This document shows positions 17,943-26,179 of a stretch of DNA of 64,000 nt, piece by piece. The notes beneath the pieces were generated by a model. The model was not told where the DNA came from. It worked only from the letters and a program-made list of their open reading frames with translations, and made no database searches. Source of the DNA: Lachnospiraceae bacterium (lineage in GTDB: Bacteria; Bacillota; Clostridia; Lachnospirales; Lachnospiraceae); assembly GCA_017556805.1 (NCBI GenBank), contig JAFYMC010000020.1, forward strand, positions 1 to 64,000, given 5' to 3'. A program made the translations under genes and the position numbers. Position 1 is the first letter of the stretch. Each line of letters opens with the position of its first letter.

Positions 17943-19652
17943 ATGAGTAACGGAGGACCGAAGGCACCGAAGGACCCGACAAAGAAACGTCCGAGTATTT
18001 TTGTGCTGTATGATAAGACCATTGAGGCCTACAAGATGCCGGAGGGCGGCAGTGCGAGTCCGTTGTTTTTGGATAACAAGAGACTGGCAAATTATGCAAG
18101 GACCATCGGACGGGTAGAGGATGAGGAGTTGTTGGAGCTTTTGAATACCGCGGAGGGATTTAAAAAACTGGTGCATTCCGTAGGGGTATCCATTGCCTGT
18201 GAGAATACGACCCAGGAGGCTGAGTTTGTATTGCATATGTACGGCAAAACGGATATGTTCGAGAGCGGTACAAGGAAGGTAACGAAGGTTGTAACCAACG
18301 GTTCGGAGGTGGAGATTCCGCTGTCCGATATCGACTGGTACGGGGATGATGTTTGTGTGGGACAGTTTTTATTCCGGTTCCCGGGGGCTGGGGAAGTGGC
18401 TACCATCAATGTCCGTCTGTATTTGAATGATGGTTATACGGCACCGGAGTTTATTCCGGATGCACCGGTAGATTTTGACAGTGCGGCATACAAAGAAATG
18501 ATTGCGAAGTCCTTTGTTTCCCTGGGAAATAATGTCCGTTTAAAGCGTGCTATCGAGAAAGCGAAGGCAGGAGAGGATGTGACGGTGGCGTTTATCGGCG
18601 GTTCCATTACCGAGGGTGCCGGCGCGACTCCGAGTCAGAAGACCTGTTATACCAAGGTGGCTTATGACCGATTCTGTGCCCGATTCGGAAACGGCGATAA
18701 CGTGCATTATACCAAGGCGGGAGTGGGCGGCACCTCTTCGGAACTCGGCATGATTCGCTATGAGCGCGATATTCTCGGCAGAGGCGATAAACCGGATGTG
18801 GTGGTTGTGGAGTTTGCGGTAAACGACGAAGGTGATGAGACCAAGGGCGATTGCTACGAGACATTGGTGCGTAAGATTTTATTTTCGGACAATGCGCCGG
18901 CGGTGATTTTACTGTTTTCCGTATTTGAGAGCGATTGGAACCTGCAGGAGCGTTTGTCACCGGTCGGTGTCCGTTACGATTTGCCGATGGTAAGCGTAAG
19001 GGATGCGGTGGTAGAGCAGTTCTATCTCCCGGCAGACGGGGGCCGTGTGATTTCCAAGAACCGGTTCTTTTATGATATTTATCATCCGACCAGTGACGGC
19101 CACCGGATTATGGCGGACAGTCTGGATTATCTGTTTGCACAGGCGGATGCTGCTCCGACAGGAACGGAGCCGGACTATGCGGCATTGGAAACGGTGTTTT
19201 GTCCGGAGTTTGTGAATGTGCGTTTGTTAGACCGTAAGGACGGTTTTGAGGGCGCGGAGATTTCCTGCGGAGGCTTTACGGAGACCGATAAGGACCTGCA
19301 TTATGTGGAGATGAATCTGGATAATTTCCGTACACCGGTGCTTCCGCATAACTGGATGGCCACGGAGGAGACCGGGGACGAGCCGTTTGTGATTAAGATT
19401 AAGAGCCCATATTTGCTGGTGATTACGAAGGACAGCGGAAGCCCGGAATTCGGCAAGGCGGACATTTATGTGGACGGCGAATATGCGCTGACGGCAGATC
19501 CGTTGGCGGTAGGCTGGACCCACAGTACGGCGCAGATTGCGTACCGAGGGAAGGAAAATACCGTACATACGGTAGAGATTCGTAAGAATCCGGAAACAAA
19601 AGATAAGAAGTTTACGATTCTGGGATTTGGGTATGAAGCGCCGGAGGCGTAA
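17943..19652 (+). CDS. SGNH/GDSL-type hydrolase (cytoplasmic, large form)
   Basis: The 569-residue protein starts at ATG 17943 after GAAGGAGACAG and has no signal peptide. An N-terminal domain of ~175 residues is unrecognised. The SGNH hydrolase domain follows, with block I FIGGSITEGAG (nucleophile Ser), block III VVEFAVNDEGDE (the N-D of the oxyanion site) and block V FYDIYHPTSDGHRIM (catalytic Asp and His). A beta-rich C-terminal region repeats features of the next gene's product (KADIYVDGEYALTADP). Such enzymes deacylate carbohydrates or lipids; the substrate is not known. It lies 37 nt before a lipoprotein homolog and probably shares its transcript. Confidence 0.88.
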   Translation: MSNGGPKAPKDPTKKRPSIFVLYDKTIEAYKMPEGGSASPLFLDNKRLANYARTIGRVEDEELLELLNTAEGFKKLVHSVGVSIACENTTQEAEFVLHMYGKTDMFESGTRKVTKVVTNGSEVEIPLSDIDWYGDDVCVGQFLFRFPGAGEVATINVRLYLNDGYTAPEFIPDAPVDFDSAAYKEMIAKSFVSLGNNVRLKRAIEKAKAGEDVTVAFIGGSITEGAGATPSQKTCYTKVAYDRFCARFGNGDNVHYTKAGVGGTSSELGMIRYERDILGRGDKPDVVVVEFAVNDEGDETKGDCYETLVRKILFSDNAPAVILLFSVFESDWNLQERLSPVGVRYDLPMVSVRDAVVEQFYLPADGGRVISKNRFFYDIYHPTSDGHRIMADSLDYLFAQADAAPTGTEPDYAALETVFCPEFVNVRLLDRKDGFEGAEISCGGFTETDKDLHYVEMNLDNFRTPVLPHNWMATEETGDEPFVIKIKSPYLLVITKDSGSPEFGKADIYVDGEYALTADPLAVGWTHSTAQIAYRGKENTVHTVEIRKNPETKDKKFTILGFGYEAPEA

Positions 19653-19689
19653 TTACTTATAAAATGAGAGCGAGAGAGGATTTTTGACC

Positions 19690-21018
19690 ATGAAAAAGAA
19701 GATTATGCTGTATTTGGCCTGCGTGGCGGTATTCGCCTTTGCGGCATGTAACAAGGAAACAACCGTAGAACCGGAGACAACGACAACACCGGCAACGGAA
19801 GCGACAGCGACTCCGGAGCCGACTCCGGAACCGACTGCAACGCCGGAGCCGACGGCGACTCCGAAACCGACCGCAACCCCGACTCCGGATGTGGATTGGT
19901 ATCAGGAGATGTTGGAAAAATCCGTTAAGTCGACCGGTAACAATGCCCGTTTAAAGAAGGTGCTTGAAAAGGCAAGAAGCGGTGAGACTGTAAACATTGC
20001 TACCCTCGGAGGCTCTATTACCGAGGGCGGGAATGCCAGCCCGATGAGTAAGGGCTATGCATATTTGTTTGCACAGGCCTTCGGTGAGACTTACGGTGTC
20101 AACGGCGGTGAGAACATCAACTTTGTGAATGCGGGACTGAGCGGAACCCCGTCTTCTCTTGGCGTCATCCGTTACGAACGTGATATTGTGGAGGCTTTGG
20201 GGGCAGAGCCGGATTTACTCCTGATTGAGTTTGAGGTAAACGATTATGGGGAAGTAACCCGGGGACGTGCCTACGAGAGTATCGTATACGACGTGCTTTC
20301 CCAGGACAATGATGCTGCGGTAATTATGGTGTTTGCGGTAACCAATGATGAGTGGAATGTGCAAAACGAGCATTTGCCGATTGCAAACCATTATGATATT
20401 CCGATCGTCGGCATGAAGGAAGCCGTATTCGGCGCGGTAAGAGCAAAGTACATGACGACAAATAAATATTTTACCGACAGATATCATCCGAATAATTACG
20501 GCCATACCGTAATGAAGGATTGTATCATGCAACTTCTGGCAACGGTAGATGCAGAGGAGCCGGAAGAGATGAATGCAATTCCGGAAACCGGTGTAAAGGG
20601 CAGAGAGTTCTCCGGTATGGAGATGATTACCGCAAAGTCCGAGGCTGTTACTATAGAGCTCGGTGCGTTTAGCCAGACGGATGCAGGCGGACAGGGATTC
20701 CAGGTAAAGGGAGGCCATTCCTTCCCAGATAACTGGAAGCACGATGCTTCCGCAGGAAACGATCCGTTTCAGATGACGTTGACTTGTAAGAACCTTCTGT
20801 TAAACTATAAGACCGGTGGAAACGAATGCGGCAGTGCTGATATTTATGTAGACGGTAAAAAGGCAATGACCGTAAACGGCGCCGGCGGTTGGGGAAGCTC
20901 TAATGTAGTCCTCCTTGTCGATGAAAAGGAAGCAGCGGAGCATACCGTAGAAATATGCATGGCAGAAGGCCAGGAAAGTAAGACATTCACGATTTACGCA
21001 TTTGGATATACAAAGTAG
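19690..21018 (+). CDS. SGNH/GDSL-type hydrolase lipoprotein
   Basis: ATG 19690 gives a lipoprotein signal (MKKKIMLYLACVAVFAFAAC, lipid Cys20); the TTG two codons upstream is less likely. A Thr/Pro/Glu linker of ~45 residues (repeated ATPEPT units) spaces the enzyme from the membrane. The SGNH domain has TLGGSITEGGN, LLIEFEVNDYGE and YHPNNYGHTVM, so the Ser, Asn and Asp-x-x-His positions are all present. The C-terminal beta region (CGSADIYVDGKKAMTVNGAG) matches that of the preceding gene. The 442-residue product is therefore a surface-anchored paralog of the cytoplasmic enzyme upstream, consistent with sequential deacetylation of plant polysaccharide outside and inside the cell (inference). 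Confidence 0.9.
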   Translation: MKKKIMLYLACVAVFAFAACNKETTVEPETTTTPATEATATPEPTPEPTATPEPTATPKPTATPTPDVDWYQEMLEKSVKSTGNNARLKKVLEKARSGETVNIATLGGSITEGGNASPMSKGYAYLFAQAFGETYGVNGGENINFVNAGLSGTPSSLGVIRYERDIVEALGAEPDLLLIEFEVNDYGEVTRGRAYESIVYDVLSQDNDAAVIMVFAVTNDEWNVQNEHLPIANHYDIPIVGMKEAVFGAVRAKYMTTNKYFTDRYHPNNYGHTVMKDCIMQLLATVDAEEPEEMNAIPETGVKGREFSGMEMITAKSEAVTIELGAFSQTDAGGQGFQVKGGHSFPDNWKHDASAGNDPFQMTLTCKNLLLNYKTGGNECGSADIYVDGKKAMTVNGAGGWGSSNVVLLVDEKEAAEHTVEICMAEGQESKTFTIYAFGYTK

Positions 21019-21035
21019 TCCTTGCATAAGCGAAA

Positions 21036-21336
21036 AAGTCGGTCTCTTATATTTTATGTTCATCTGAAATATAGCCGGTGCCTTTCGCAGTATTCACTTT
21101 GAACTTTACGTAGGATAGTAGACTTTCTTATTACTTCGATGGTCTGTCAGCAACGGCCGGACAGGAGGTCCGGGCGAGCCCGCCATAAGGCATGGATGCC
21201 GCATCAGGGCGGTTGTGTCACATAATCGTATATGTGGCGAAGTAATTAGAAAGACTCTATCCGGAGTACGAGAAAAGGGGATACTGCGAAAGACACCGGC
21301 TAATTCATATATGATAAAAATATAAGAGACCGATTT
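21036..21336 (+). ncRNA. Large nested-hairpin RNA, unassigned
   Basis: Three long stems are nested around one axis. The outer stem is 21036-21057 with 21314-21336 (~20 bp, one bulge). The middle stem is 21074-21093 with 21281-21300 (19 of 20 positions pair). The inner stem is 21113-21138 with 21238-21262 (~22 pairs). The 99-nt apex holds smaller hairpins: CCGGA/TCCGG at 21157-21173 and CACATA/TATGTG at 21219-21236, with a GC-rich section between. No plausible ORF crosses it. A true terminator follows at 21362-21396. Strand is inferred from that terminator. It does not show the SRP, RNase P or tmRNA signatures I know. It might belong to a known Firmicutes RNA family (for example 6S, raiA or skipping-rope), which I cannot test. 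Confidence 0.7.
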
Positions 21337-21361
21337 ATTTTATATGCGGATAAGCAAGAGT

Positions 21362-21396
21362 GGGGCGCGCATCTTAAATGCGACAGCCCCCTTTTT
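21362..21396 (+). terminator. Rho-independent terminator after the structured RNA
   Basis: GGGGC...GCGCAT pairs with ATGCG...GCCCC and is followed by CTTTTT. The U-run is on the plus strand only, so it ends plus-strand transcription through the structured RNA. The facing minus-strand gene ends at its edge (21395). Confidence 0.8.
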
Positions 21397-25279: not shown

Positions 25280-26179
25280 ATGGAAACGGGTATTTTATTA
25301 GAGAGCGGAACAAATGAGTTGGAGATTTTGGAATTCCGTATCGGTGCAAATCATTACGGTATCAATGTGGCAAAGGTACGTGAGATTCTTCCTTTTAAGG
25401 AACCGACACCGATTCCGAATGCGCATCCTTGCATTGAAGGTATTTTTATGCCGCGTGACGAGATTATTACGATTGTTGATCTGGCAAAGCATTTGAATAT
25501 GCCGGCGTCCGGCGGCACTATGGATATGTATATCGTTACAAATTTTAATAAGTTGAATATCGGATTTCATGTACATAACGTAGTCGGTATTTCCCGCGTA
25601 TCCTGGTCGGATATTTCAAAGCCGGATGCTACCTTGAGCGGAAACGGTACGGGAGTTGCCACCGGTATTATTAAGCTGGACGGAAAATTGATTATCATTC
25701 TTGATTTTGAGAAGATTATTTCTGACATCAGTCCGGAGACGGGACTTAAGGTTTCCGAGATTGATCAGTTGGGACCGAGAGAGAGAAATACGGCTCCGAT
25801 TTTGATTGCGGAGGATTCCGCCTTATTAGGAAAGTTAATCAGCGAGAGTCTGAGCAAGGCAGGATACACCAACCTGACCATGACAACCAACGGTCAGGAG
25901 GCGTGGGATCGACTGAACCAGTATAAAAATGAGGGCGTTCTGGACCAAAGGGTTCGCCTGATTATTACCGATATTGAGATGCCGCAGATGGATGGTCATC
26001 GTTTGACGAAGCTGGTAAAAGATTCTACGGCATTTGCGCATATTCCGGTTATGATTTTCTCTTCGTTGGTAAACGACGAGATGAGAAAGAAAGGGGAAGC
26101 ACTCGGCGCGGATGCACAGCTTTCCAAGCCGGAAATCGGTCATCTGGTAGAAGCAATTGATCGTATTTTATGGAAATAA
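25280..26179 (+). CDS. cheV: Chemotaxis coupling/receiver protein CheV
   Basis: The 299-residue protein starts at ATG 25280 after ACGGAGG. It has a CheW-like coupling domain (residues ~8-155) joined to a response-regulator receiver domain (~172-298), the CheV architecture. In the receiver the acidic pocket LIAEDS, the phospho-acceptor Asp231 in TDIEMPQMDG, and Ser/Lys of the switch (FSS; LSKPE) are present. CheV couples receptors to CheA and adapts through phosphorylation. No other complete che gene is adjacent, but a receptor fragment lies at 31.4 kb. The next gene begins 24 nt downstream and is probably co-transcribed. Confidence 0.92.
   Translation: METGILLESGTNELEILEFRIGANHYGINVAKVREILPFKEPTPIPNAHPCIEGIFMPRDEIITIVDLAKHLNMPASGGTMDMYIVTNFNKLNIGFHVHNVVGISRVSWSDISKPDATLSGNGTGVATGIIKLDGKLIIILDFEKIISDISPETGLKVSEIDQLGPRERNTAPILIAEDSALLGKLISESLSKAGYTNLTMTTNGQEAWDRLNQYKNEGVLDQRVRLIITDIEMPQMDGHRLTKLVKDSTAFAHIPVMIFSSLVNDEMRKKGEALGADAQLSKPEIGHLVEAIDRILWK

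Follow-up and report, generated by a model that had tools for sequence, protein, structure and literature searches.

The large nested hairpin at about positions 21019-21362 of the window (the whole 64,000-nucleotide stretch of Lachnospiraceae DNA that was analysed) carries at its apex the RNA that Rfam lists as TwoAYGGAY (RF01731), and is most likely a mobile palindrome. On this reading, which we consider somewhat better than evenly probable, it is a non-autonomous, MITE-like insertion with a TwoAYGGAY apex, which lies near gene 3' ends and may serve as a decoy for CsrA. The family, RF01731, is known; the anatomy beyond the Rfam model is new. For this reading, we infer that transposition spreads the element and that template switching makes its arms match, as we do the binding of CsrA and any effect on the host.

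The extent of the hairpin was taken from an inverted-repeat search and from folding. The search placed an outer stem with arms at 21033-21055 and 21317-21339 (23 nt, 91% complementary), a middle stem at 21045-21100 and 21274-21329 (56 nt, 73%) and an inner stem at 21120-21138 and 21238-21256 (19 nt, 89%, with 99 nt between the arms), and the three are segments of a single long interrupted helix. The 361-nt stretch examined by folding has a minimum free energy of -163.8 kcal/mol, compared with a mean of -96.2 (sd 5.5) for 100 shuffled sequences (z = -12.3), none of which was as stable. An earlier note on this DNA had described three nested stems around a 99-nt apex in a strongly structured hairpin, and both are present where it placed them. 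Its further claim, that the RNA matches nothing known, fails on the Infernal search against Rfam that it proposed itself: the apex gave a significant cmscan match to RF01731 with 89.4 bits against a gathering score of 43 (E = 4.2e-14), covering the whole model (1-168). By this score the window element is a member of the family, which is listed in PMC2864571 (excerpt). It resembles the Rfam description in fitting the whole model and in having two GGA hairpins. Rfam models 168 positions, while the window hairpin extends through private arms, and the element described here differs further in being multi-copy, at sites that are lineage-specific and can be flipped. The loop region of the second apical hairpin conforms to AYGGAY, and that of the first retains GGA and departs from the motif (Table 1); the region of the second hairpin pairs differently in the minimum free energy fold of the 361-nt stretch. 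The left arm starts immediately 3' of the stop codon of the hydrolase gene.

Table 1. Features of the TwoAYGGAY element and of its site in the window.
Feature	Position	Strand	Basis
GDSL-like hydrolase gene, 444 aa	19684..21018	+	ORF, Pfam PF13472
Left arm	21019..21105, outer edge approximate	+	Inverted repeats, fold, similar arms at unrelated loci of relatives
Core, TwoAYGGAY (RF01731)	21106..21269	+, strand as in Rfam	cmscan; 15 more copies in the same genome
Apical hairpin 1, loop AGGAG	21157..21173	+	Sequence and fold
Apical hairpin 2, loop region AUGGAU	21189..21200	+	Sequence and fold
Right arm, complementary to left arm	21270..21362, outer edge approximate	+	Inverted repeats, fold
Terminator-like hairpin and T run	about 21360..21395	+	Fold; assigned to the site, not the element
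Convergent gene, small zinc-ribbon protein, 211 aa	21395..22030	-	ORF, Pfam PF13240

The genome assembly, still in draft form, has 37 contigs and is 86% complete, which might leave room for an assembly artefact or a chance inverted repeat. This explanation is hardly credible and was rejected, given the stability of the fold, the Rfam match, the covariation of the core (a score reached by 0 of 500 shuffles) and orthologous copies in other assemblies.

The site of the window copy can be compared with that of nine congeners. The zinc-ribbon gene is present in all nine, with the C-terminus of the hydrolase as its convergent neighbour in each, and an nhmmer search of the fetched stretches found no TwoAYGGAY core between the two genes in any of them. 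Because the same genes adjoin without the element in 9/9 congeners, the window copy seems to be an insertion specific to its lineage; loss from all nine is possible and less simple. The intergenic gap is 52-130 nt in seven congeners, 302 and 328 nt in the other two, and 376 nt in the window. Both long congener gaps contain a different palindrome, considered below. The earlier note had also given the RNA its own terminator. A terminator-like hairpin followed by CTTTTT does exist there, adjoining the stop codon of the convergent gene (the hairpin is absent from the list of a simple consensus terminator scan), but it probably belongs to the site and not to the element, because eight of the nine element-less congeners fold a clear terminator-like hairpin between the same genes (L129 is unclear). 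The hydrolase gene beside the element is the second of two GDSL-like hydrolase genes in tandem (17943-19652 and 19684-21018, both +).

Sixteen TwoAYGGAY copies score above the cut-off in the genome of origin. Matches were found in 19 of 98 genomes in a sample of relatives, the genome of origin counted, with at least 25 in four of them, and in 34 of 392 genomes in an order-wide sample where the best seven places per genome were scored. Zero counts, such as that of G002, hold among the best 25 or 7 candidates scored per genome. Among named records, five Lachnospiraceae MAGs are close relatives, of which three come from the gut of deer or sheep; the loci of the five repeat L127, L128, L129, L131 and L132 and were not counted as independent. 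No match to the element was found in plasmid and phage records. For the counts of arms and neighbours, 120 oriented copies were used, 16 from the genome of origin and 104 from relatives, leaving out the weak loci L030-L034 and, among the listed copies, most of G005 and several of G046, G051, G006 and G007. Several copies form close divergent pairs about 130-300 nt apart (L097 on contig 32 of G004, and in G017, G358 and G433), while no convergent pairs that close were seen by eye among the listed copies.

Most copies carry private arms that match each other. The 120 nt on either side of each core were scored for complementarity against 2000 non-cognate draws, giving a median of 78 for cognate pairs and 18 for non-cognate pairs, and 95 of the 120 copies exceeded the 99th percentile of the non-cognate scores (25 fell below). 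Between copies of the genome of origin, the median identity of left arms is 53%, close to the 52% of shuffled sequence, compared with 72% for cores. Arms resembling those of the window recur at unrelated loci of relatives, and for this reason arms and core appear, on sequence grounds, to spread together. At L015, a copy of the same genome beside a gene resembling that of ribosomal protein L7/L12, the apex is shortened and the left arm mismatches the right. Congener copies at the same site (L066, L085) keep better-matching arms, and L015 is perhaps a decaying element.

Twelve of the 16 copies share their site with a fetched congener copy, so that most are old and vertically inherited. Median core identity is 0.80 for orthologous and 0.74 for non-orthologous copies, and the arms have medians of 0.72 and 0.70 compared with 0.60 and 0.58. 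Two orthologous sites carry the element in opposite orientations in different species. At one (L004 vs L090) the core is identical and the 60-nt arms are 0.97 and 1.0 identical, with flanks that are visibly more different; the other involves L062, L078 and L108 against L081. In genome G051, copies at unrelated places have a common 14-bp terminal inverted repeat, GGTGTCAAAACATG, which with up to one mismatch has 61 matches in that genome and 1 for the control. Thirteen of these places were read. Six, spanning 293-297 bp, match the core; the GGA hairpins are missing from two that span 173-177 bp and from four that span 79-86 bp, and the last is a palindrome of 24 bp. At one of the short palindromes without an apex (L138), a partial core match lies beyond the ends. 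We read the shorter palindromes as probable apex deletions; stepwise growth is a possible alternative. The end repeat of the window copy had 34 matches in five genomes against 20 for the control.

The 16 dispersed copies, together with a window site that lacks the element in 9/9 congeners, place the element beside MITEs (PMC2229807, excerpt) and other small palindromic repeats such as REPINs (PMC3116915, excerpt). It is similar to these in being a short, intergenic, multi-copy inverted repeat, with an end repeat common to one genus and short deletion-like derivatives. However, a classical MITE conserves its ends, whereas TwoAYGGAY conserves its apex and not its arms, and its ends vary by lineage. 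The end-repeat searches of G051 and the five genomes found no mobilising enzyme or autonomous partner: the terminal repeat of the window tagged no autonomous element in the five genomes, and no GGTGTCAAAACATG pairs framing a longer element were seen by eye in G051, a single fragmented genome. No target-site duplication was established by eye at element boundaries that are approximate.

The earlier note had set a structured RNA against a mobile repeat. The element is structured and covarying, and the either-or split does not survive, as the evidence points to both. The nature of the covariation bears on this. In an alignment of 38 sequences, 28 of 36 core pairs have changed on both sides, so covariation is present, but it is not of the usual kind for an RNA read from one strand. 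If the + strand works as RNA, G.U pairs are expected to be tolerated and A.C pairs are not. Across the 120 cores, G.U makes up 2.0% and A.C 1.7% of cells, compared with 18.9% and 0.4% in SRP RNA (the best 30 of 59 matches, drawn from the sample of relatives and including other genomes). The 16 cores of the genome of origin have seven cells of each, and a second core alignment totals 74 G.U and 72 A.C. In 16 ortholog pairs chosen from the closer ones, 31 changes are two-sided and Watson-Crick, 19 are one-sided to G.U and 20 one-sided to A.C, and a further 25 are one-sided mismatches of other kinds. That G.U and A.C are about equally rare, with many two-sided changes, points to arm copying in DNA as a likelier source than selection on one RNA strand. 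Summed within genus, the second alignment has more G.U than A.C (51 > 28), and the G051 cores give 18 G.U vs 1 A.C when aligned alone (13 vs 28 on the cross-genus alignment), an excess that leaves room for selection on + strand RNA.

Template switching is reported to yield multibase compensatory changes (PMC8794818, excerpt), and to homogenise the arms of inverted repeats and invert their spacers (PMC8604942, excerpt). The element resembles such hairpins in all three respects, namely homogenised arms, multibase compensatory change and spacer inversion. In the excerpts of these two sources, the process is reported for RNA genes and yeast coding genes, unlike the multi-copy bacterial element with long arms described here, for which it is a proposal.

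The conserved apex suggests a link to CsrA. Two GGA hairpins occur in 119 of the 120 copies, some with weak stems, and the GGA loop columns are conserved in 116, 120 and 119 copies for one loop and in 118, 120 and 120 for the other, against a mean conservation of 0.73. All six full-length G051 copies that were found by their ends, and not by their core, have two CANGGANG loops on stems of at least four pairs. By sequence, the apical loops resemble the CsrA/RsmA consensus, given for RsmA as CANGGAYG (PMC7705225, excerpt), and CsrA binding by the family was previously proposed from motif matching (PMC4333381, excerpt). Binding of CsrA by the TwoAYGGAY apex is therefore plausible from its loop sequences. 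The genome of origin encodes CsrA, as do all 34 motif-bearing genomes of the 392 and all 19 of the 98 (48/48 distinct genomes), while overall the gene is found in 225/392 and 66/98 genomes. The naive p values for this co-occurrence are 2e-9 and 2e-4 in the two samples; for the 60 genomes of the family sample, which were tallied by hand, p is 2e-5, and by genus 5e-5. FliW, an antagonist in Bacillus subtilis (PMC7652899, excerpt), is encoded by 18 of the 19 motif-bearing genomes vs 65 of 98 overall, and is nearly as linked, so that a link to CsrA is not distinguished from one to motility at large. The window also encodes a CheW domain fused to a response-regulator receiver domain (25280-26179, +), fitting a motile cell that has CsrA and FliW. 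A search for a literature link between CsrA and MITEs gave none; in the excerpt of PMC4383904, the terms co-occur in unrelated passages.

These observations on the apex and on CsrA would also suit dispersed genes for CsrA-sequestering sRNAs, in which the + strand is transcribed and the GGA hairpins titrate CsrA, as if a CsrB were split over the genome, with copies arising by duplication and persisting for that function. The G.U excess within genus and in G051 agrees with this as well. We consider the explanation possible but rather unlikely, as sigma-70-type promoters show no excess 5' of the core (found in 38 of the 120 copies, with 32.4 expected), SRP RNA has far more G.U, the link to FliW is nearly as close as that to CsrA and the first loop of the window copy departs from AYGGAY. 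The strand of the core relative to its neighbours is a further objection. With codon-scored ORF calls as neighbours, and with only those copies counted that have one, the core runs antisense to the 3'-side gene in 90 of 112 copies (binomial p 6e-11) and to the 5'-side gene in 75 of 105 (p 1e-5), although the copies are not independent. The element is similar to CsrB/RsmY-type RNAs in its paired GGA hairpin loops near CANGGAYG and in a genome that has CsrA, but it differs in offering two sites per copy over many loci, without a promoter excess, mostly antisense to its neighbours and in a FliW-encoding bacterium. The decoy part of the mobile palindrome reading is weakened by the same two facts, the antisense GGA strand in most copies and the lack of a promoter excess.

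Where the 3'-side gene is antisense, 70 of the 90 copies have its stop at a distance of 55-145 nt from the core (median 112), and the distance to the core on the 5' side spreads widely (median 223). This position would suit an element that acts from the opposite strand, in which read-through from the upstream gene forms a hairpin that serves as a terminator, a 3'-end stabiliser or an RNase III site, and in which the strand in Rfam would be the wrong one. Wobble pairs in the arms are also in line with it: between two minus-strand genes A.C exceeds G.U (367 > 223), between two plus-strand genes the order is reversed (36 < 61), and by copies the bias is 45 to 15 and 4 to 9, respectively (Fisher p 0.007). 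These are from a narrower count of the arms, used in place of a wider one (A.C 1191, G.U 856) that holds end alignment noise. As the bias reverses with gene strand, wobble follows flanking transcription. However, the bias is small and could be produced by transcription-linked mutation, a role tied to one strand would not survive the flips between species, it is on the other strand that the conserved loops resemble CsrA sites, and the 3'-side gene usually seems to own a terminator (in copies read by eye, uncounted). We regard this explanation as very unlikely. T runs outside the arms showed no asymmetry, with means of 5.2 to 5.9 of 8 in four readings. In four species the element lies just upstream of the same gene (L007, L049, L079, L102), which we take to be that of prolyl-tRNA synthetase, and a member of a second palindrome family is found a few hundred bases from the element in at least three of the four.

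The palindrome in the long flanking-gene gaps of G006 and G005 belongs to this second multi-copy family (L128, L129). Its core, of about 125 nt, has 22 matches in the genome of origin and is matched in 9/10 congeners, that genome included, with at least 40 matches in G002; it was not found within the window. Twenty copies from the genome of origin (in L185-L204) have a common core and private arms, with cognate arm scores above the 99th percentile of non-cognate scores in 19. Five loci gave no Rfam match of the family at E 1 or better (L129 has one chance-level match, under its gathering score), and no sequence common to its core and that of TwoAYGGAY was detected. In 18 of the 20 copies the palindrome lies 3' of a gene and in one orientation, which would again suit a role at gene 3' ends on the opposite strand. 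A bolder idea, quite unlikely in our estimation, is that the two cores form one class of palindromes in which the conserved apex is the engine and the arms are rewritten by template switching, and that the TwoAYGGAY branch seeds distributed, invertible CsrA-binding sites in gut bacteria of the FliW type.

For TwoAYGGAY itself, the mobile palindrome reading would be as follows. A short, non-autonomous palindrome would disperse in Lachnospiraceae genomes, mostly settling near gene 3' ends, and the RNA in Rfam would be its conserved apex, which spreads jointly with the arms. After insertion, the arms would diverge in sequence and yet remain complementary, most likely because replication template switching in the DNA hairpin rewrites one arm from the other, and the same process could flip the core. 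Where the + strand is transcribed, the apex with its two GGA loops may act as a small CsrA-binding decoy. The literature on RF01731 that our search covered, with subscription papers mostly outside it, does not describe mobility, private arms or inversion of TwoAYGGAY.

Since 2010 TwoAYGGAY has stood in the literature with no agreed function. If the mobile palindrome reading is true, TwoAYGGAY is no free-standing RNA gene but the conserved apex of such a palindrome, and arm copying at the DNA level would account for much of the covariation that has been credited to RNA selection. Comparing G.U with A.C pairs is a simple test that could serve for further families of orphan RNAs. Should the apex bind CsrA as well, CsrA sites would be supplied by mobile DNA in bacteria where FliW is the known kind of antagonist.
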